A stretch of 63,061 bases of DNA from Candidatus Fermentibacteraceae bacterium (lineage in GTDB: Bacteria > Fermentibacterota > Fermentibacteria > Fermentibacterales > JCC-6), in the NCBI GenBank assembly GCA_027067855.1, contig JAMOUX010000003.1, forward strand, positions 1-63,061, written 5' to 3'. The translations under genes and the position numbers were made by a program. This document shows, in pieces, positions 51,844 to 60,439 of the stretch (position 1 is its first letter; the number at the start of each line of letters is the position of its first letter). The notes under the pieces are model-generated. The model saw nothing but the letters and a program-made list of their open reading frames with translations. It was not told where the DNA came from and did not search any database.

Positions 51844-53019
51844 TCATAATTTCAATTGAAACTGGTATATTACTTGGTATTCCTCGGGATCCTGCGAAAA
51901 TGCGACTATTCCTTGTGGTGTTATCCTGAATTTCCAGTAGATGGCATCTTGTCTTGAGGGAAGAACAGCTGTGAACAGAACGGTTCCATGACAATCAAGA
52001 ATGTCGAACACCGGCGTAAGTTGATTTCCTCTTTGAACCCACAGATTCCCATCAGGACCGATGCCAATGGCTTTGATCATCGGTCTGTAAAGATCGGGCT
52101 CCCAGTCGATCAACATCTGACCAAAGGAATTGATACGAACTGATTGTTCTATGAATACCTTCTCATCGGACAGTTCATCAGGCGTTCTTTCCACCTGTTC
52201 ATAGGAAAGAAATATCGTATCACAGGGAGTACCACTTAGATCAAAAGAATAAATAACAGGATCTGTTTGTGGTTTTGGAGCAAGAAATACTGTTTCATTG
52301 TTTCCCGTAAAGAGCATCGGAAAGTAGTCAATGCGAGTGATATTAGTCGCGAAATCACCATAACTTAAGTTGTGCTCCTGTTCATAGAAGCATACAAGTG
52401 GCATTTCGGGTGTAGTGTCTCTCCAAAGCGAAAGTCGATTAACAATGAAATGCCCCTCATCTCTAATATCATATTCGCTCAGAACACCCAGTAGATCGTT
52501 CGAACCGATTGGTTGTATCCATAGTGGTTTATCGATCATATCCGTTTGCTTTTGAGCGAGCAGTTCTCCTTCAGGGCTGTACTTAACAACGAAGTTCGCG
52601 TCAACAATATAGACCGATCCATCCCCAAGCACGGTGAAGAATCCAGGGATATTCAATTCTCCAGGTCCTGGACCGCTACGTGCTATATGCTGAATGAACT
52701 CACCCTCAGGTGAGAATACCGACACATGACACTTACCGACATCCAAAACGAAAATATTCCCGGTTGGTCCTATTGCTATATCGTACACAGCTCCGAATAC
52801 ATAATTGCTGTCACCCTCCGCCAATCCGATGGAGTCAGTGATGAACAGTGTTTTGATAACGGAGGTTTCGGTTTCAGGATCGGGCCCACAATCCGCACAA
52901 CTTGCACCGAAAATGCCCGATAAGATAACAATGATTAGTACCATAATTCTAATAATAATGAATACTAACCTATGTTTATCTCCATAATAAAAGAAGGGAC
53001 TCTTTTGTAATAGTGGCAT
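51844..53019 (-). CDS. Six-bladed beta-propeller lipoprotein of the RiPP operon
   Basis: This 391-residue protein has a lipoprotein signal: hydrophobic VFIIIRIMVLIIVILSG and lipobox FGASC (C41). Behind it come NHL-type propeller repeats (GAVYDIAIGPTGNIFVLDVG, HVSVFSPEGEFIQHI, GSVYIVDANFVVKYSPEGEL, KAIGIGPDGNLWVQRGNQL). GGAGG lies ten bases before the ATG. It is the last gene of the unit, 23 bases after the second permease. Small exported peptides and six-bladed propellers also neighbour each other in Bacteroides (NVEALA loci), so a peptide-binding or sensing role is plausible but unproven. Confidence 0.82.
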   Translation of the reverse strand: MPLLQKSPFFYYGDKHRLVFIIIRIMVLIIVILSGIFGASCADCGPDPETETSVIKTLFITDSIGLAEGDSNYVFGAVYDIAIGPTGNIFVLDVGKCHVSVFSPEGEFIQHIARSGPGPGELNIPGFFTVLGDGSVYIVDANFVVKYSPEGELLAQKQTDMIDKPLWIQPIGSNDLLGVLSEYDIRDEGHFIVNRLSLWRDTTPEMPLVCFYEQEHNLSYGDFATNITRIDYFPMLFTGNNETVFLAPKPQTDPVIYSFDLSGTPCDTIFLSYEQVERTPDELSDEKVFIEQSVRINSFGQMLIDWEPDLYRPMIKAIGIGPDGNLWVQRGNQLTPVFDILDCHGTVLFTAVLPSRQDAIYWKFRITPQGIVAFSQDPEEYQVIYQFQLKL

Positions 53020-53042
53020 AATATTTATTCCTCCAAAATATT

Positions 53043-53831
53043 TTAACTACTTGCGCTAGTATATTTGGCAACAAGCATACAATAAAGATATCTGCACGAT
53101 ATTACAGCAATTGTGGTATACAATAAGAGAATAACTGCGTCTTGAAATGAATAAAACCATCCAGTCAGGCTTGCTGTAGGAGCATTAGCCAGTAGGGCAA
53201 CGGGAACGACATAGACCAAGAAGATTTTTATCCATCCGCTGAATATTGAAGAAGGATAATGAGACTGATTGAAAAGGGAGGTTTGGAGAGATTGTAGTGC
53301 AGATACTTTTGTAAACACAAAGGAGAGAATAGCTATTCCCAAACCAAATGAATATCTGATCAATACACCGCAAAGTATCAATAGTAATGCAAATGGTATT
53401 CTCTCCGGGATTATCGGTACTTCTTTTTGCACAATCAGATATAATATCCAGAGAAGAGGCCCGGTGATGCTCATCAGAGGCACCAGATTGAATCGAGAGA
53501 TAGAAACAAACAGCTGTGAGTCCAGTGGCTTTAAAAGGATAAAATCGAAAGTACCTTTCCTGACTTCCTCCTGAAGATAAGAAACACCTCCAGCTAAAAA
53601 GGTTGAATACAGAATGCTGATGATCTGTGCAATAGAGCCCAGAAACTGCATTTGTTCTTTATTCCACCCGGAAATCGTACTGATTCTACTAAACACTATT
53701 TCAATGAAAAGTATTAAGAAGGCGAAATTAAGGATCTGAAGTACTCCTTGAAAGAAAATATTCTCCCTATGCTCAAGACGGCTGGCAATTGCCATTCGAA
53801 TAAGTTGCATATGGGTTCTACTCATGCTCAT
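53043..53831 (-). CDS. ABC-2 type permease subunit 2
   Basis: This 262-residue integral membrane protein with six helices resembles ABC-2 family permeases of the YadH/PF06182 kind. The conserved element EEVRKGTFDFILLKPLDSQLFVS is the family's coupling region after helix 2. GGAG lies eight bases before ATG 53831; it begins three bases after permease 1. With its partner and the ATPase it would form an exporter, presumably of the matured peptide. Confidence 0.87.
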   Translation of the reverse strand: MSMSRTHMQLIRMAIASRLEHRENIFFQGVLQILNFAFLILFIEIVFSRISTISGWNKEQMQFLGSIAQIISILYSTFLAGGVSYLQEEVRKGTFDFILLKPLDSQLFVSISRFNLVPLMSITGPLLWILYLIVQKEVPIIPERIPFALLLILCGVLIRYSFGLGIAILSFVFTKVSALQSLQTSLFNQSHYPSSIFSGWIKIFLVYVVPVALLANAPTASLTGWFYSFQDAVILLLYTTIAVISCRYLYCMLVAKYTSASS

Positions 53832-53834
53832 GCT

Positions 53835-54623
53835 TCAGGCTCCATACGATGTGTATACGCGTTTCCCTCTGGACCAGATCAAGTGCAGGACTATACAGCC
53901 AATCACAACCCAGATAACCTGTATCAGTAACCCATGTGAAATCTGTGTGGTAGAGAGTCTATTGCAAAGTACTTCCGCTGGGAATGCAAGTGTGTACCAA
54001 AACGGTAGTAATTCCATCGTACTTCTAAGCCAGTTGGGGAAAAAACTCAATGGAAGAAACGCACCTGACACTACCGGTACAATCAAACCAAGCCCAATAC
54101 TGATGGAAGAAATATCTTCCATCCAGAATGAAATACAGCTTAGGCTCATCCCAAGTAGAAATGCGATTACTGCACCAAGGGCAACCGAAAGAAGACCATG
54201 GAATAACTGAGGATTATAACTGAAAACAGATGGGAAAATAATAACTACAATAGGTATTATCACTAATAAAGTGTATAACAGATAATTAAACGAAACGGCA
54301 GAGAAAACACTGAAGCAATGCCTTATGTAGTGAAAAGGACGAAGTAGATATGCAGACAATTGTCCTGATCTTATGTCACTTGATACTTCATAGTTGATCT
54401 TGATCATCAAGATGTCCTGCAAAACAAGAATCATCAGATAATAGGCAAATAGCTGAGGACGAGTAAAACCCGCAATGTAGGTTCTTCCCTGAAATGCAGC
54501 ATTCCAGAATAGGAGCAGGAAGAGCATAGGCAGGACTACAACCAGAAAACTCGCTATGGTATTTGTTCTGTATATGGCAGTTTCCTTAAGTACATTCTTG
54601 AATGTAGTTATTTCAGCTTTCAT
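53835..54623 (-). CDS. ABC-2 type permease subunit 1
   Basis: This 262-residue membrane protein with six helices has the family element NYEVSSDIRSGQLSAYLLRPFHYIRHC, parallel to the one in the next gene, so the two are paralogous half-transporters. The start ATG 54623 lies inside the end of the ATPase gene (11-base overlap), a sign of translational coupling. Substrate inferred from operon context. Confidence 0.87.
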   Translation of the reverse strand: MKAEITTFKNVLKETAIYRTNTIASFLVVVLPMLFLLLFWNAAFQGRTYIAGFTRPQLFAYYLMILVLQDILMIKINYEVSSDIRSGQLSAYLLRPFHYIRHCFSVFSAVSFNYLLYTLLVIIPIVVIIFPSVFSYNPQLFHGLLSVALGAVIAFLLGMSLSCISFWMEDISSISIGLGLIVPVVSGAFLPLSFFPNWLRSTMELLPFWYTLAFPAEVLCNRLSTTQISHGLLIQVIWVVIGCIVLHLIWSRGKRVYTSYGA

Positions 54624-55575
54624 CCTGCATTTTCACCTTAAGCGCTTCCTCAAAGTTGATCTCAATGGAGTCGATTTCTTTACATGACAATTGTGCCAGC
54701 TCAGCCAGAAGCAGTTTCTCCTTAGATTCATGGATCAAGTGTCTCATTTGATTTCCAATTATATTTACTTGATCTGCAAGTCCAATACTCTTGTATTCAT
54801 CATTGATATCAGTTGTCACTATTCTGAAATTCGAATAGGATTTATGCAGTTCGTCTTTCGTGCCATCAAAAATTATACTGCCCAGTTTTATTATGATGAT
54901 TCGCGCGCATAACTCTTCTATGTCTCTTATATAGTGGCTTGTCAGTAATATTGTAGCATTATATTCTATATTGTACCATCTTAGAAACTGTCGAATGGAA
55001 TCCTGGGAAACCAGATCAAGACCTATTGTAGGCTCATCCAAGAATAGAATATCAGGAGAGTGGAGAAGTGAGCAGATAAATTCCATTTTCATACGCTCGC
55101 CAAGAGATAATTTCCTCACAGGAATCTGTACTAGGTCCTTAATTGCCAATACAGATGATAGAGTGTCAATCCTGCCTTGAAAATCTTTTTCATTAATATC
55201 ATAGATACTTTGCATCAGTCTAAAAGTATCCATTGCGGGTAGATCCCACCACAGCTGGCTTTTCGATCCCATAATAAAACCGATATTCTTTAAAAAACGT
55301 TTTTTTCGTCTGAAGGGATCTTCACCCATGACTCTGATTTTTCCTTTATCCGGCATCAGAATGCCAGATAGCAGTTTCATTGTAGTCGTTTTTCCAGCTC
55401 CGTTTGAACCGAGATAGCCAACAAACTCCCCCCGCTTCACTGTGAAGCAGATATCCCTCAATGCCGGTACAATTTCATACTTCCTTCTGAACAGGTCTTC
55501 AAGAAAACCCTTGACACCCTCGTTGCGACGGTGCCTCTTGTATACTTTGTACAGGTTCTCAACTATTATTGACAT
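54613..55575 (-). CDS. ABC transporter ATPase
   Basis: This 320-residue ATPase pairs with ABC-2 permeases. Walker A GSNGAGKTT (56-64), Q-loop region GFIMGSKSQLWWDLPA, signature KLSLGERMKMEF, Walker B ILFLDEPTIGLD and the switch His in LLTSHYIRDIEEL are all present, so it should be active. The C-terminal 90 residues form the extra regulatory domain of NatA/bacteriocin-export types. Its start overlaps the maturase gene by ten bases. Confidence 0.93.
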   Translation of the reverse strand: MSIIVENLYKVYKRHRRNEGVKGFLEDLFRRKYEIVPALRDICFTVKRGEFVGYLGSNGAGKTTTMKLLSGILMPDKGKIRVMGEDPFRRKKRFLKNIGFIMGSKSQLWWDLPAMDTFRLMQSIYDINEKDFQGRIDTLSSVLAIKDLVQIPVRKLSLGERMKMEFICSLLHSPDILFLDEPTIGLDLVSQDSIRQFLRWYNIEYNATILLTSHYIRDIEELCARIIIIKLGSIIFDGTKDELHKSYSNFRIVTTDINDEYKSIGLADQVNIIGNQMRHLIHESKEKLLLAELAQLSCKEIDSIEINFEEALKVKMQDES

Positions 55576-56699
55576 TTTTCTCTCTCAGCATTGCCTACAA
55601 TTTCGTTCTTTACGCAGAACATAATTCTGCGGGGGAGAAATGTTCTGAAGAACTCTTTCTTGCAGTCTTTTTCCCACCCATGAAGTATCGACTGCTGAAT
55701 ACAGCCTCCAAGGCACATTGGCAAATATCGACATTCTCTGCATTCTTCTGAAGACTCAAAACTGTTCCAACCGTACAAAAATTGTGCCGAATTCTTAGAT
55801 ATTCTCTCCGGGCCATCAGTAATATTACCGACATAACTCTCTTGCTGACCCACTAATGAAACACACTTGTACACTTCTCCTGATGGTGAAATAACAAAAT
55901 CCGATGGAGTCCTCGTTGAGCAATATGGACTTCCGAACGGATCGCTCGTTTTCAGACCAAGATTGGCCGCTTTCTCGTAAAGATCCATCATGGATTCTGC
56001 CTTCTCCTTTTGTGATTTAAAGCAATACTTTGTTAGAAAGCTTCCAGGATTCTTACCGGGCATGACCAAAGCAAACACAAGGACTAAGTTATTCTTTCCA
56101 TGGAAATCTTCTGCCAATCTAGAGAGCAGACCATTCAGTTCAGAATAATTATGCATATCTATATTTATTCCTAAATATACTTTCATTCCTTTGTCAATCG
56201 CTTCAGTCATGTTCTTGTATACATCCTTGAATGATCCACTGCCATCTTGGTATGGACGTCGGTGGTCATGGATGTTCTGATCTCCATCAAGTGTAAAGAG
56301 AAGTCTATCTATTCCAAAACTAATGAAAGATTCAATTGTCTCTGAATCTATAAGTGTTCCATTAGTTACCATTGAAAAATCACTCTGAAGCCCCTCACCT
56401 GAAAGCGTACGAGATACATCAGAGCACAGCTTCTCTATCAAATCTTTTCTGAGGGTTGGTTCACCACCATGAAAAGAGAAACTTACTTTCTTAGTTCCAT
56501 ATGTGTTAGCAAGTGAAATAATAAATTCGCACAACTGTGGAATACTCGATTCCTGAAAATCAGTCTGTCTTTCATTAACGCTTTCAAGCTCTCTATAGCC
56601 TTCCTCATAGCAATACAGGCAACGGGAATTACATCTTCTTGTCAGCAGCTGTGTAATGCTCAATGTATCAGTATTATACAATGTTGATTCATGCTGCAT
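55566..56699 (-). CDS. Radical SAM/SPASM peptide maturase (main frame)
   Basis: The radical SAM domain has the cluster motif RRCNSRCLYCY (C23, C27, C30), SFHGGEPTLRKDL, TNGTLI and LFTLDGDQNIHDHRRP, an SPASM-protein hallmark. The C-terminal SPASM domain carries auxiliary cluster cysteines in SPYCSTRTPSDFVISPSGEVYKC and CRECRYLPMCLGGC. Such enzymes install thioether or carbon-carbon crosslinks in ribosomal peptides. The frame is open upstream of ATG 56699 to 56816 and encodes plausible N-terminal residues (DNKCPDLLSEDVLELLYKLG), but that stretch has no usable start codon, so the true N-terminus lies in another frame (see 56700-56917). Confidence 0.93.
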   Translation of the reverse strand: MQHESTLYNTDTLSITQLLTRRCNSRCLYCYEEGYRELESVNERQTDFQESSIPQLCEFIISLANTYGTKKVSFSFHGGEPTLRKDLIEKLCSDVSRTLSGEGLQSDFSMVTNGTLIDSETIESFISFGIDRLLFTLDGDQNIHDHRRPYQDGSGSFKDVYKNMTEAIDKGMKVYLGINIDMHNYSELNGLLSRLAEDFHGKNNLVLVFALVMPGKNPGSFLTKYCFKSQKEKAESMMDLYEKAANLGLKTSDPFGSPYCSTRTPSDFVISPSGEVYKCVSLVGQQESYVGNITDGPERISKNSAQFLYGWNSFESSEECRECRYLPMCLGGCIQQSILHGWEKDCKKEFFRTFLPRRIMFCVKNEIVGNAEREKCQ

Positions 56700-56917
56700 G
56701 CGAAACAGATGGAGTTCATCAACATCGTCATCAACAACGATTCCAAGCTTGTACAGTAATTCTAATACATCTTCTGATAATAAATCAGGACATTTATTAT
56801 CTGTTCTACGATTCCGTTAGGCAATATTGACACACTTTTTTGTAATATATTGTACGCTATCATATTCTCGTTATATTTTACAAATTGATTATACTTTGAT
56901 TTTTTCAATGTTCCCAT
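56700..56917 (-). other. N-terminal part of the maturase, in a shifted frame
   Basis: On the minus strand ATG 56917 opens a frame reading MGTLKKSKYNQFVKYNENM, then IAYNILQKSVSILPNGIVEQ, the kind of N-terminus seen in SPASM maturases before their RRE-like region. That frame stops near 56764. The radical SAM frame is open from 56816 and continues the same theme (CPDLLSEDVLELLYKLGIVV). A single-base change around 56780-56810 (near ATAATAAATG) would join them into one protein of about 450 residues. I see no slippery heptamer for programmed frameshifting. Either a recent mutation or an assembly error. Confidence 0.65.
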
Positions 56918-56978
56918 CTCTTTATCATTTAAAGGGGACACACATACAGCATGTTCCCAGAGTAAGTACTGCTAAATA

Positions 56979-57092
56979 CTAACCAGGGCAGCGCTGAGTC
57001 CTACAAACGCACTGGCCGGTCTGATCGCCATCAAGACCGCCGACATTTGTAGATGAACCCATGTCCAATACTACGATTGCTCCATTGTCCAT
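56979..57092 (-). CDS. Putative RiPP precursor peptide, cysteine-rich C-terminus
   Basis: This 37-residue peptide starts at ATG 57092 behind GGGAGGTGAAAT, one of the best ribosome-binding sites in the island. The leader-like part is acidic and Gly-rich (MDNGAIVVLDMGSS, then NVGGLDGDQTG); the tail is QCVCRTQRCPG, with cysteines at 28, 30 and 35. It is 61 bases upstream of the maturase's apparent start, same strand, with an ABC exporter following. Size, cysteine tail and neighbours are those of a radical SAM-modified precursor. I recognise no family. The core boundary (perhaps after G26) is inferred. Confidence 0.75.
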   Translation of the reverse strand: MDNGAIVVLDMGSSTNVGGLDGDQTGQCVCRTQRCPG

Positions 57093-57114
57093 ATTTCACC
57101 TCCCTTTAAATCTT

Positions 57115-57144
57115 TATATTGGTTCTTTATAAACTTAGTGTCAA
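57115..57144 (-). promoter_or_regulatory. IS21-borne -35 box facing the RiPP operon
   Basis: On the minus strand the IS21 terminus ends in CCCTTGACA; its TTGACA (57144-57139) points out of the element. Downstream in the flank are AT-rich -10 candidates (AATATA at 57120, TATAAA at 57118-57113) at 18-20-base spacing, about 20 bases before the ribosome-binding site. Outward -35 boxes at IS21 ends are known. Confidence 0.45.
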
Positions 57145-57233
57145 GGGACACCCAGTTCCGCGCAGTTGGGGGACATCCATTTCCTCGCACCTCATGCAGA
57201 GTCCCCCTGTCGTCATGAGATGCGTCTCCTGAT

Positions 57234-58007
57234 CTATTCCTGGTTTGTTTCGATCGCCTGATTCATGTGCCTCAGGCGGTAAGATCTGCCATCGATGTTC
57301 ATCACATGACAGTGATGGAGCAGCCGGTCCAGAAGAGCGGTTGCCAGGACCTCATCACCAGCGAGCATGTCCGGCCATTCCCTGATGCTCTTGTTTGAAG
57401 TAATGATGGTGCTGGTCTTCTCATAACGGTAGCTGATCACCTGGAAGAGCAGGTGCGCATCCCTGCGGTCCATGGTCTGGAAGCCCAGCTCGTCGATGAT
57501 GAGCACAGCAGCTCTCATGTACTTCCTGCGGCTCATTCGCCTGCGCTCGTTCTGGCTGTCCCTCCGCATGCGGGAGATGAGTTCGTCCGCCGTGAGGTAG
57601 GTGACCGAGAAGCCGTTCTGGACCGCCTTGACTCCCAGACCGGCCGCGAGGTGTGTCTTGCCCACTCCGGGAGGACCGAGCAGCAGGACGTTTTCTCGCA
57701 TGCGTGCGTACTCGCAGGTGGAGAGCATCTCTATCCCGCGCCTGTCGCCCCCCCTCTGGAAGGTGAAGTCGAAGTCCTCGATGGTCCTGCCCCTGGGAAG
57801 ACCCGAGAGCTTGAGGCTTGTGCGCACTCTCCTCTCCTCCCGGGAGTCTCGCTCCCTGCGCAGGACGAGCTCCAGGAATCCGGGCAGGGAGAGTTCCTCC
57901 CTGACCCCCTGCTCGATGAGCTCGGGCAGCGCCTCCTGCGCAAACTCGAATCCCGTATCGGTGAGGAGGGTGCGAGTCCGGTCCAGGTCTGTTGTGGCGA
58001 TGCTCAT
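57234..58007 (-). CDS. istB: IS21 helper ATPase IstB
   Basis: This AAA+ ATPase, DnaC-like, guides the IstA transposase to target DNA. Walker A GPPGVGKTHLAAGLG, Walker B AAVLIIDELGFQ, sensor 1 STIITSNKSIREW and LLDRLLHHCHVMNIDGRSYRL match IstB. ATG 58007 overlaps the istA stop by four bases. Length 257, apparently intact. Confidence 0.95.
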   Translation of the reverse strand: MSIATTDLDRTRTLLTDTGFEFAQEALPELIEQGVREELSLPGFLELVLRRERDSREERRVRTSLKLSGLPRGRTIEDFDFTFQRGGDRRGIEMLSTCEYARMRENVLLLGPPGVGKTHLAAGLGVKAVQNGFSVTYLTADELISRMRRDSQNERRRMSRRKYMRAAVLIIDELGFQTMDRRDAHLLFQVISYRYEKTSTIITSNKSIREWPDMLAGDEVLATALLDRLLHHCHVMNIDGRSYRLRHMNQAIETNQE

Positions 58008-58933
58008 GTGACCCTGCTCACCAGGTCGTGGTAGGAGTCGATGGAGCGCCTGGGAGCATCCCACTCCCAGCTCCGCTCAAGGACGATCTCCCTGCCGAGT
58101 CTGCCCAGTGGAGTCGGGGCAATCACACGGTCGTCGCCGTCGAAGTCGTTGCGAGTCCTATCCACCAGGATGCGGCAGTCCGTTCCCCGTGGATAGATCC
58201 TGAGCAGCTCTCCGCTGCCCGAGAAGATCCGGACCTCGCCTGCACAGCCCCTGACGCTGAGTGCTCTGCCGCAATACCTGGCAGGAGCCTCGTACTGCCG
58301 GCCCTCGAAACATACCATGCAGTCTCTGCCGACGGTGCGGCTCACCTGCACATCGAAGGGCTCGGGGAAAGAGAACGGCAGAGAGGTAAGATGCTCCAGC
58401 TCCCTCTCCCAGCTCTCGCGGATGGAGAGCCCCGTGACCGGGCAGAGCAACTCACCGGAGAGAGACTCCACTCTCTCGTCCGTCATCCGCTGCAGCTCAG
58501 CCAGAGTGGCGAAACGGTCACCGTCTAGAATGGGCATCCGCTTGACGTCACGGCCGCGTCTCTCGACCTTGCCCTTGTCGCTGCCGGTCCTGGCTCGGGC
58601 GGGATCCACAATGAATCCCACCTGTGAGGCATAATCGGCGTAGCCCTCGTTGATCACGGCCCAGGGACCGGCCCCGCTGGACACACCTGTCTTGAGATTA
58701 TCTATCCTGGCGCTCAGAGGAATGCCCCCGAGCCTCTCGAACGCCCTGTTGTGGCATCTGATCCAGCTCAGCATGTCCTGCGACCTGCTCCAGACCACGG
58801 TCCACATCCGGCTGAAGGACAGCACCATTACAAAAGCGTAGAGCTTTTTCCTACCACCCAGTTCGTCCACATGCACCGGCACCTCAAACCAGTCCACCTG
58901 CACCTGACTGCCAGGGCGGACCTCCCCGCCCTT
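58004..58933 (-). pseudogene. istA: IS21 transposase IstA, N-terminally truncated
   Basis: The DDE transposase core is present: GSQVQVDWFEVP (first D), SARIDNLKTGV (second D) and GSDKGKVERRGRDVKR (E), with the C-terminal beta-barrel domain following. The roughly 115 N-terminal residues with the helix-turn-helix are missing, cut at a stop at 58934. GTG 58903 could start a shorter product without end-binding capacity. Confidence 0.85.
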
Positions 58934-58936
58934 CTA

Positions 58937-59116
58937 CACTAATTACCGCTAGCGGAAATGTCTCACCTATATTGTCACGGAGGGGACCCCAGATGTCGTA
59001 TACTAACAGTAGGAAGGATAAAACCGATGAAACAGTCTGAATTTAACAGAAAACCTCTTCAGGCTGTCTACCAAAACGTGGCCACTTCATTCCTCGCTAT
59101 CTTAAGTCTCAGTAAA
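58937..59116. other. Gap between IS21 remnant and HNH gene
   Basis: AT-rich, with a short palindrome CCGCTAGCGG (58946-58955). ACCAAAACGTGGCCAC near 59071 resembles insertion-sequence ends, but no paired copy is visible. No gene seen. Confidence 0.4.
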
Positions 59117-60439
59117 TTATCCCATAACCACAGCATACGCTGCATCATGAAGGCAATCAAGCTTCCGACTTGTAATTCTCTTTTTGTGCTTCACCGTTAA
59201 TACTATTTTTACAACGCTATAGGATACTCGTATCACGGTTATTGTTGGCCCCAGTACCGGATCAGGAATAGGTGTAATACTATCCAACACAAGCTGTAAT
59301 GCCCAGAATGCGCCTTGTTCTATTGAGCTTCTAGCAATTGTTGAACCGAAGTTTCTCGCTGCTCTGGAAAGTCCAATTTGATTTGCTTGGAAGCCTTCTT
59401 GTATCAACGTTCTAACAGTAATTGCACTCATTATTATAAAGAAATCACCCGATGCGTCTGCTATATTATCAAGAAATGTATCTTGTACAAGGCAACTACC
59501 ATCAGTGAAAATATCGCAAATACCATCATGTATTAAATTACGTATTGGGTTACTAATCTCTTGAAGAACAAAGTATGGAACTATACATGTGGCTGCTCCT
59601 GAAATGAATGCGTCAGCAATTGCAGCGATTTTTCTTTGATTCCACGGTAGAGGATGCTTGGAAAGTTCTCTGTATTTTATAATGGCACTAATGCTTCCAG
59701 CTGCAACTCCAATTGTTATTCCCACTATTTCATCAAGGTTACTCTCTCTGTCGTAATGTGCTCTTTCTTTTAATCTAATTTCATCCGTTCTATCTGAAAC
59801 CTCAGAATAGGGTTCAGTAGATGTATTGTTCCAATTTCCCCCATGACCATCTTGAAGGTGTGCCTTAGGTGTTATTATTCTTACATTATCAATATCATAC
59901 ATTTGCCCCATATCATCAAATGGAGTATTGCTGATTCCTCGGCCATGATGCCCTTCGTAGATTGCTCTCTTACCGAGATGTTCACTTGGATCAGCCAGTA
60001 TCCTATTAGATTCACTCAGTCTGTTGAGTTCATTTTCTGTCCAATTGTGATAATTACCATCTGATTGATAACCACCTAAAACTTTTTCCACAGTTTCTTG
60101 ACTGGAATTATCGCTTAAGTATCTTTCATAGTCGAAACGTCTTGAAACACTCAATCCTCTTATCTTTTTCACTAAATTTCTGTATGCAGGATTATTCAAG
60201 ATTTCCTCTTGCACTCCATTAGAGTCTCGAGATATTTCAGCAAATCGATCCTGGAATGATGCAACTTGAAGTCCGTCCTCAGAATTCATCTGGTTTAAGC
60301 CATCAAAAAAGCTCTGTTGCCAATCCTTATAAGAGATAACCTCTGCATTGTATTTAATCCCGTTTATCAAAGATGCGGATATCACTGCTCCTTCTCCATA
60401 TAGAAGCATAGATAGTGATGATTCAGATCTATCTTGCAT
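59117..60439 (-). CDS. HNH-like nuclease/membrane protein of unknown system
   Basis: This 440-residue protein combines an N-terminal soluble region, an HNH-like fold and a membrane C-terminus. The HNH signature is YEGHHGRGIS (H164, H165), DIDNVRIITPKAHL (N185, H194) and H199 in DGHGGNWNN, closely like the GHH...DPxNI...EHLxxHGGNW class found in toxins and phage nucleases. From about 238 on there are three to four hydrophobic, Gly/Ala-rich segments (IVGITIGVAAGSISAII, FISGAATCIVPYFVL, FFIIMSAITVRTLI). AAGGAG precedes the ATG and overlaps the upstream gene's stop. Defence nuclease or toxin are options; neither is proven. Confidence 0.75.
   Translation of the reverse strand: MQDRSESSLSMLLYGEGAVISASLINGIKYNAEVISYKDWQQSFFDGLNQMNSEDGLQVASFQDRFAEISRDSNGVQEEILNNPAYRNLVKKIRGLSVSRRFDYERYLSDNSSQETVEKVLGGYQSDGNYHNWTENELNRLSESNRILADPSEHLGKRAIYEGHHGRGISNTPFDDMGQMYDIDNVRIITPKAHLQDGHGGNWNNTSTEPYSEVSDRTDEIRLKERAHYDRESNLDEIVGITIGVAAGSISAIIKYRELSKHPLPWNQRKIAAIADAFISGAATCIVPYFVLQEISNPIRNLIHDGICDIFTDGSCLVQDTFLDNIADASGDFFIIMSAITVRTLIQEGFQANQIGLSRAARNFGSTIARSSIEQGAFWALQLVLDSITPIPDPVLGPTITVIRVSYSVVKIVLTVKHKKRITSRKLDCLHDAAYAVVMG

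Follow-up and report, generated by a model that had tools for sequence, protein, structure and literature searches.

What is a propeller lipoprotein doing at the end of an operon for a modified peptide? The question is raised by six minus-strand genes in a stretch of 63,061 nucleotides (hereafter the window; contig JAMOUX010000003.1 of assembly GCA_027067855.1) from a Candidatus Fermentibacteraceae bacterium, which encode, in order, a 37-residue peptide, a radical S-adenosylmethionine (SAM) enzyme with a SPASM domain, an ATP-binding cassette (ABC) ATPase, two ABC-2 permeases, and a lipid-anchored six-bladed β-propeller. An earlier note on this DNA had read them as a locus for a ribosomally synthesized and post-translationally modified peptide (RiPP) that is matured, exported, and bound or sensed by the propeller. 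The gene order and spacing that it gave are exact in coordinates, overlaps (10 and 11 bases), and gaps (3 and 23 bases), and the Pfam assignments agree; the open reading frame (ORF) of the peptide, with C28, C30, and C35, was also confirmed. The genes are in tight succession from the maturase ORF through the propeller but not at the peptide, which is 279 bp from the 377-residue maturase ORF. The propeller proves to be a recurrent neighbor of related maturases in the phylum, and the product of the system is probably a thioether-type cysteine RiPP, which the exporter would release and a cognate propeller lipoprotein would handle.

Linkage of the Propeller to the Maturase

A profile search of a phylum sample of 42 genomes, all from one order, identified 12 related maturase loci, comprising RiPP-type maturases in genomes G000 (two), G011, G021, G024, G025, G027, G029, G033, and G040 (two) and a fragment in G010; the score of L040 is inflated because its sequence was in the search profile. 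At eight of the 10 loci with visible flanks (the window, G024, G040, G027, G021, G025, G029, and a relic in G010), a propeller gene flanks the maturase, mostly on the same strand and with operon-like spacing. Chance adjacency is estimated at ∼2–8% per locus, and eight of 10 at ∼6% gives a p value of ∼7e-9. As a control, a conserved 322-residue radical SAM protein of the same genomes had a propeller at none of its nine loci (several of them on short contigs), and the candidate explanation that housekeeping radical SAM genes are the propeller-linked class was rejected on this count. The partner that had been singled out as unusual for such an operon is thus both real and recurrent; the loci without it are that of G011 and the second locus in G000. 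Searches of the open-licence literature turned up no account of a DUF5128-type propeller lipoprotein at a radical SAM RiPP locus. An NVEALA/propeller association is known in Bacteroides. A scan of genome contigs gave one Acidobacteriota relative only, and plasmid matches (Thermus, Deinococcus, and Methylomagnum) have no annotated propeller beside them.

The window propeller scores 33.5 bits against PF17170 (cut-off 22.9), and its AlphaFold2 model has a predicted local distance difference test score (pLDDT) of 89.9, with NHL six-bladed propellers as the top Protein Data Bank matches by Foldseek; BtuG, a ligand-binding propeller lipoprotein, is lower in the list. All of the linked propellers have a lipoprotein-like signal at the N terminus. 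DUF5128-like propeller lipoproteins are expanded in the phylum, with up to 31 copies per genome (e.g. G025 and G018), and are all but missing from the sampled genomes outside it. The linked copies form no clade in the tree (six changes, at least four of them forced) and were recruited several times from this large paralogue family; the tree is biased toward long linked branches because the unlinked rows were chosen by similarity to the window. When PF17170 copies drawn independently from four genomes served as the sample, the linked propellers were still the less conserved (median 0.44 versus 0.94 bits/residue in the unlinked, p = 0.005, with non-exhaustive targets). A general rule pairing propellers with small Cys peptides was rejected, the unlinked propellers being without such peptides.

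Recurrent Cysteine-rich Peptides

The candidate precursor matched nothing in Pfam or NCBIfam, in line with the earlier statement that it belongs to no recognized family. Its Shine-Dalgarno (SD) sequence is a strong one. The pattern that this forms with the start codon, GGAGGTG-N4-ATG, occurs three times in the 63-kb window, where 1.3 matches are expected by chance, so that the SD by itself argues little for the peptide. Every gene of at least 150 residues in the fetched loci (628 genes) was scanned for an adjacent SD-led ORF of 25–60 residues with at least three Cys; the scan picked out the maturase loci of the window, L035, L036, L037, L038, and L113, together with three other loci, an enrichment at maturases with a Fisher p value of ∼2e-10 on approximate counts. 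All six scan-positive maturase peptides have a CxC motif, for which the joint p value, calculated post hoc given their Cys content, is ∼0.015; the shared motif is only mildly unusual for peptides of this composition. When the second maturase of the window's own genome is counted, a short peptide with three or more Cys and CxC lies beside the maturase at seven of the 12 loci. This second SPASM-type radical SAM gene (L123 6022–7431, contig C20) has an upstream 64-residue Cys-rich ORF ending ISCCLQACDCCLQIS; next after it come an AlbA_2/restriction-like gene and one of the Exo_endo_phos type, with no propeller. At an eighth locus, in G011, three tandem ORFs of 27–29 residues (L032 4617–5141), of the type MEVLK..PEPLSE..TTCC.NQ.AP and each with a plausible SD, precede the ATPase, two permeases, and the maturase, in that order.

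A conserved small peptide beside homologous maturases was the check that had been set beforehand for the RiPP reading, and short Cys-rich SD-led ORFs do recur there. As judged from sequence, this recurrence supports the presence of RiPP precursors beside this class of enzyme and exporter and is a stronger argument than the SD that the window peptide did not arise as an ORF by chance. The RiPP reading is sustained to this extent but is qualified by peptide sequences that are unalignable between loci and by a window maturase that looks broken (see below). Three further ideas about the peptide were dropped. Its VV[LF]DM likeness to the L034 peptide is no better than that of shuffled sequences; it is not part of the neighboring insertion sequence (IS) of the IS21 family, which has its boundary at 57139; and amidation at a C-terminal glycine, with the propeller acting as a PAL-like enzyme, was prompted by the terminal Gly of the window peptide and does not extend to the other peptides, which have no Gly end.

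The Maturase and the Exporters

Two motifs, CNSRCLYC (CX3CX2C) and CRECRYLPMCLGGC (CX2CX5CX3C), are invariant in the maturase alignment, and the window enzyme scores 58.5 bits against the SPASM model TIGR04085 (cut-off 27). The search against NCBIfam RiPP models that had been proposed as a check was run, and the best scores, across the radical SAM domain and the SPASM domain, were for the geopeptide maturase TIGR04280 (180.5 bits versus a cut-off of 400, using an ORF without the N-terminal domain), CefB (NF038107, 178.4 versus 600), and TIGR04463 (158.5 versus 525); ranthipeptide PapB (NF047865) gave 131.3 bits versus 340 and TIGR03906 (QhpD) 83 versus 453. The maturase is therefore under every NCBIfam family cut-off, as are its intact relatives in the phylum, whose TIGR04280 scores are 108–143 bits. 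The closest solved relative is CteB (5wgg). An AlphaFold2 model of the maturase alone had a pLDDT of 39.5 and was not used.

Export is a near-constant feature of these loci, and the type of exporter varies. Of the 42 genomes, three encode the PF06182 permease, and a RiPP-type maturase is its neighbor in every case. At L034 and L035 the exporter is an ABC_membrane/ABC_tran fusion that has no peptidase domain, and the apparent start of an exporter of the fused type is at the contig end in L037.

Proposed Function and Relation to Known Systems

The geopeptide, CefB, and TIGR04463 maturases all act beside short Cys-rich precursors, and the system described here differs from them in its scores, in a precursor that belongs to no model, and in the propeller lipoprotein present at most loci. 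Ranthipeptides and sactipeptides (PapB, CteB/SCIFF, and SkfB) likewise combine a short Cys-rich precursor with a SPASM enzyme; here the PapB score is under its cut-off, the window precursor has three Cys in a CxCx4C arrangement, and the chemistry is one that we infer.

In the proposed pathway, the maturase would introduce cross-links at the C-terminal cysteines (CVCRTQRC), most likely thioethers judging from the enzyme class, and the dedicated ABC-2 exporter would carry the peptide out of the cytoplasm. The linkage suggests that the lipid-anchored propeller would be the cognate envelope protein that binds the mature peptide. In the operons of lantibiotic producers, LanFEG/LanI modules consist of an ATPase, a pair of ABC-2 permeases, and a lipoprotein, the same set as in the window, and the window proteins would work like such a module. 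By this analogy, the most likely purpose of propeller binding would be handling of, or self-protection against, an antagonistic peptide, a purpose to which we give somewhat less than an even chance. LanI and LanFEG are described as the two immunity systems against lantibiotics (PMC4828448). The likeness has limits: the LanF model TIGR03740 gives 110.6 bits versus a cut-off of 309.75, the lipoprotein is a propeller, and elsewhere an ABC_membrane exporter of the fused type takes the place of this one.

Several observations weigh against an exported peptide with a cognate propeller. The G011 locus has precursors, an exporter, and a maturase and no propeller, and most propeller copies in the phylum are unlinked and stand alone in unrelated surroundings, so that the family must also have other roles. 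In pairwise alignments, the window peptide has no significant similarity to the peptides of its neighbors save a short CxC match to L038; the L034 candidate has one Cys only, and there is no clear peptide at the L040 locus. Profile searches gave no toxin-like or immunity assignment. The linkage ties a RiPP maturase class to one particular envelope partner, recruited again and again, in an uncultured phylum, and the intact sister loci allow direct tests of peptide chemistry and of peptide-propeller binding. Binding of the peptide by the propeller would also provide a handle on the role of large bacterial propeller-lipoprotein families.

Condition of the Window Operon

We consider it slightly more likely than not that the window operon is a relic from which nothing is made, its upstream region removed by the IS21 element and its maturase frameshifted. 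The truncated IS21 element, its end set by homologous copies elsewhere, stops 47 bp short of the peptide ATG on the upstream side, and the original upstream region of the operon is therefore gone, although transcription from a promoter facing outward at the end of the element is conceivable. The true start of the maturase is probably a TTG near 56908, 70 bp past the peptide stop. From there, positions 1–38 of the N-terminal model of relatives match frame 2 of the window and positions 52–91 match frame 1, with the switch near 56783–56800 and the downstream frame open upstream to ∼56786. The gene is thus frameshifted or mis-assembled; the N-terminal domain, probably the peptide-recognition domain, is intact in L034–L038 and is present but split over two frames here, and the window copy of the maturase is probably inactive, unless the frameshift is an assembly error. 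The exporter and propeller ORFs are intact, which argues against decay of the whole operon.

The closest relative, G010, is of the same genus and has kept the ATPase and permeases at 54–60% identity (ATPase 59%, permease 2 54%) and lost the precursor region and half of the maturase, on the 5′ side; an internal stretch of its propeller is also deleted. The differences between the exporter genes of the window and G010 are mainly at third codon positions, indicating that the exporter has been under purifying selection. The two genomes that share this exporter lineage have kept its ORFs intact, and in each the damaged gene is the maturase, a pattern that fits immunity outliving production, two cases being weak evidence. 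Beside the decayed operon in G010 is a gene for an FG-GAP protein (L030 7394–8287) whose match to the Por secretion-tail domain (PF18962) is just over the cut-off and hints at type IX secretion in the phylum.

Alternative Roles for the Peptide and the Propeller

Sequence alone cannot tell self-protection apart from two other roles, in signaling and as a prosthetic subunit, so the three readings are inseparable here. Signaling, with the peptide secreted as the signal and received or carried by the propeller lipoprotein, seems unlikely to us: divergent peptides are repeatedly paired with divergent propellers, and ligand binding is known for surface propeller lipoproteins, BtuG being among the structural matches, but the operon has no sensor kinase or regulator and nothing points to a downstream response.

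The second of these roles is suggested by quinohemoprotein amine dehydrogenase (QHNDH), whose γ-subunit joins a β-propeller subunit; in its biogenesis (QhpC/QhpD/QhpF) the γ-subunit is cross-linked by a radical SAM enzyme and exported by an ABC transporter (PMC7876137), and QhpB is the β-propeller subunit (PMC8172795). The same four parts are found here, namely a small Cys peptide, a SPASM enzyme (with the sub-threshold match to QhpD), an ABC exporter, and a propeller, and the matured peptide might dock in the propeller as a prosthetic subunit of a stable envelope complex. We consider this improbable: the Pfam scan of the operon gave no heme subunit, QhpE-like protease, or flavoprotein, the six-bladed lipoprotein is of another propeller lineage, the peptides are much shorter and vary widely between loci, and one locus is without a propeller. 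A broader form of the idea would be a phylum-wide modular system in which exported, cross-linked CxC peptides dock as prosthetic or signaling ligands in repeatedly recruited lipid-anchored six-bladed propellers, both partners diversifying together, so that a QHNDH-like principle would operate outside any dehydrogenase; we offer it as speculation and give it equally little credence. Finally, that the propeller is an unrelated hitchhiker, brought beside maturases through the abundance of its family and missing from one locus, is very hard to reconcile with an adjacency so far above chance, with the shared strand and spacing, and with the result at the 322-residue control protein.

Features of the Locus and Its Upstream Neighbors

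TABLE 1. Coordinates of the operon and of the adjoining IS21-family element in the window
Feature	Coordinates	Strand	Evidence
Candidate RiPP precursor, 37 residues, MDNGAIVVLDMGSSTNVGGLDGDQTGQCVCRTQRCPG (C28, C30, C35)	56979..57092	-	ORF and SD GGAGGTG; recurrent small Cys ORFs at relatives
SD GGAGGTG of precursor	57097..57103	-	Sequence match
Maturase N-terminal fragment, probable TTG start, SKYN...IAYN motif	56762..56908	-	N-terminal model of relatives, frame 2
Radical SAM/SPASM peptide maturase, CNSRCLYC and CX2CX5CX3C	55566..56699	-	PF04055 (3.4e-18); weak Pfam SPASM; TIGR04085
ABC exporter ATPase	54613..55575	-	PF00005
ABC-2 permease 1	53835..54623	-	PF06182
ABC-2 permease 2	53043..53831	-	PF06182
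Lipid-anchored six-bladed NHL-type β-propeller (DUF5128)	51844..53019	-	PF17170 (3.3e-8); AlphaFold2; lipoprotein-type N terminus
Truncated IS21-family element (istB 57234–58064; istA remnant 58004–58903)	57139..58903	-	NF038214, NF033546; homologous copies

To the left of the IS21 remnant, a segment of ∼65 bp (58920–58984) recurs whole or in part, with 82–92% identity, in six or more further genomes of the phylum and may be a conserved end of the IS; the 96 nucleotides around it show no unusual RNA folding. Directly upstream of the remnant, on the minus strand, is a gene (59117–60439) for a 440-residue protein that matches the Colicin/Pyocin-S2 DNase domain over residues 132–196 (PF21431, 1.7e-7) and is a possible second competition gene.

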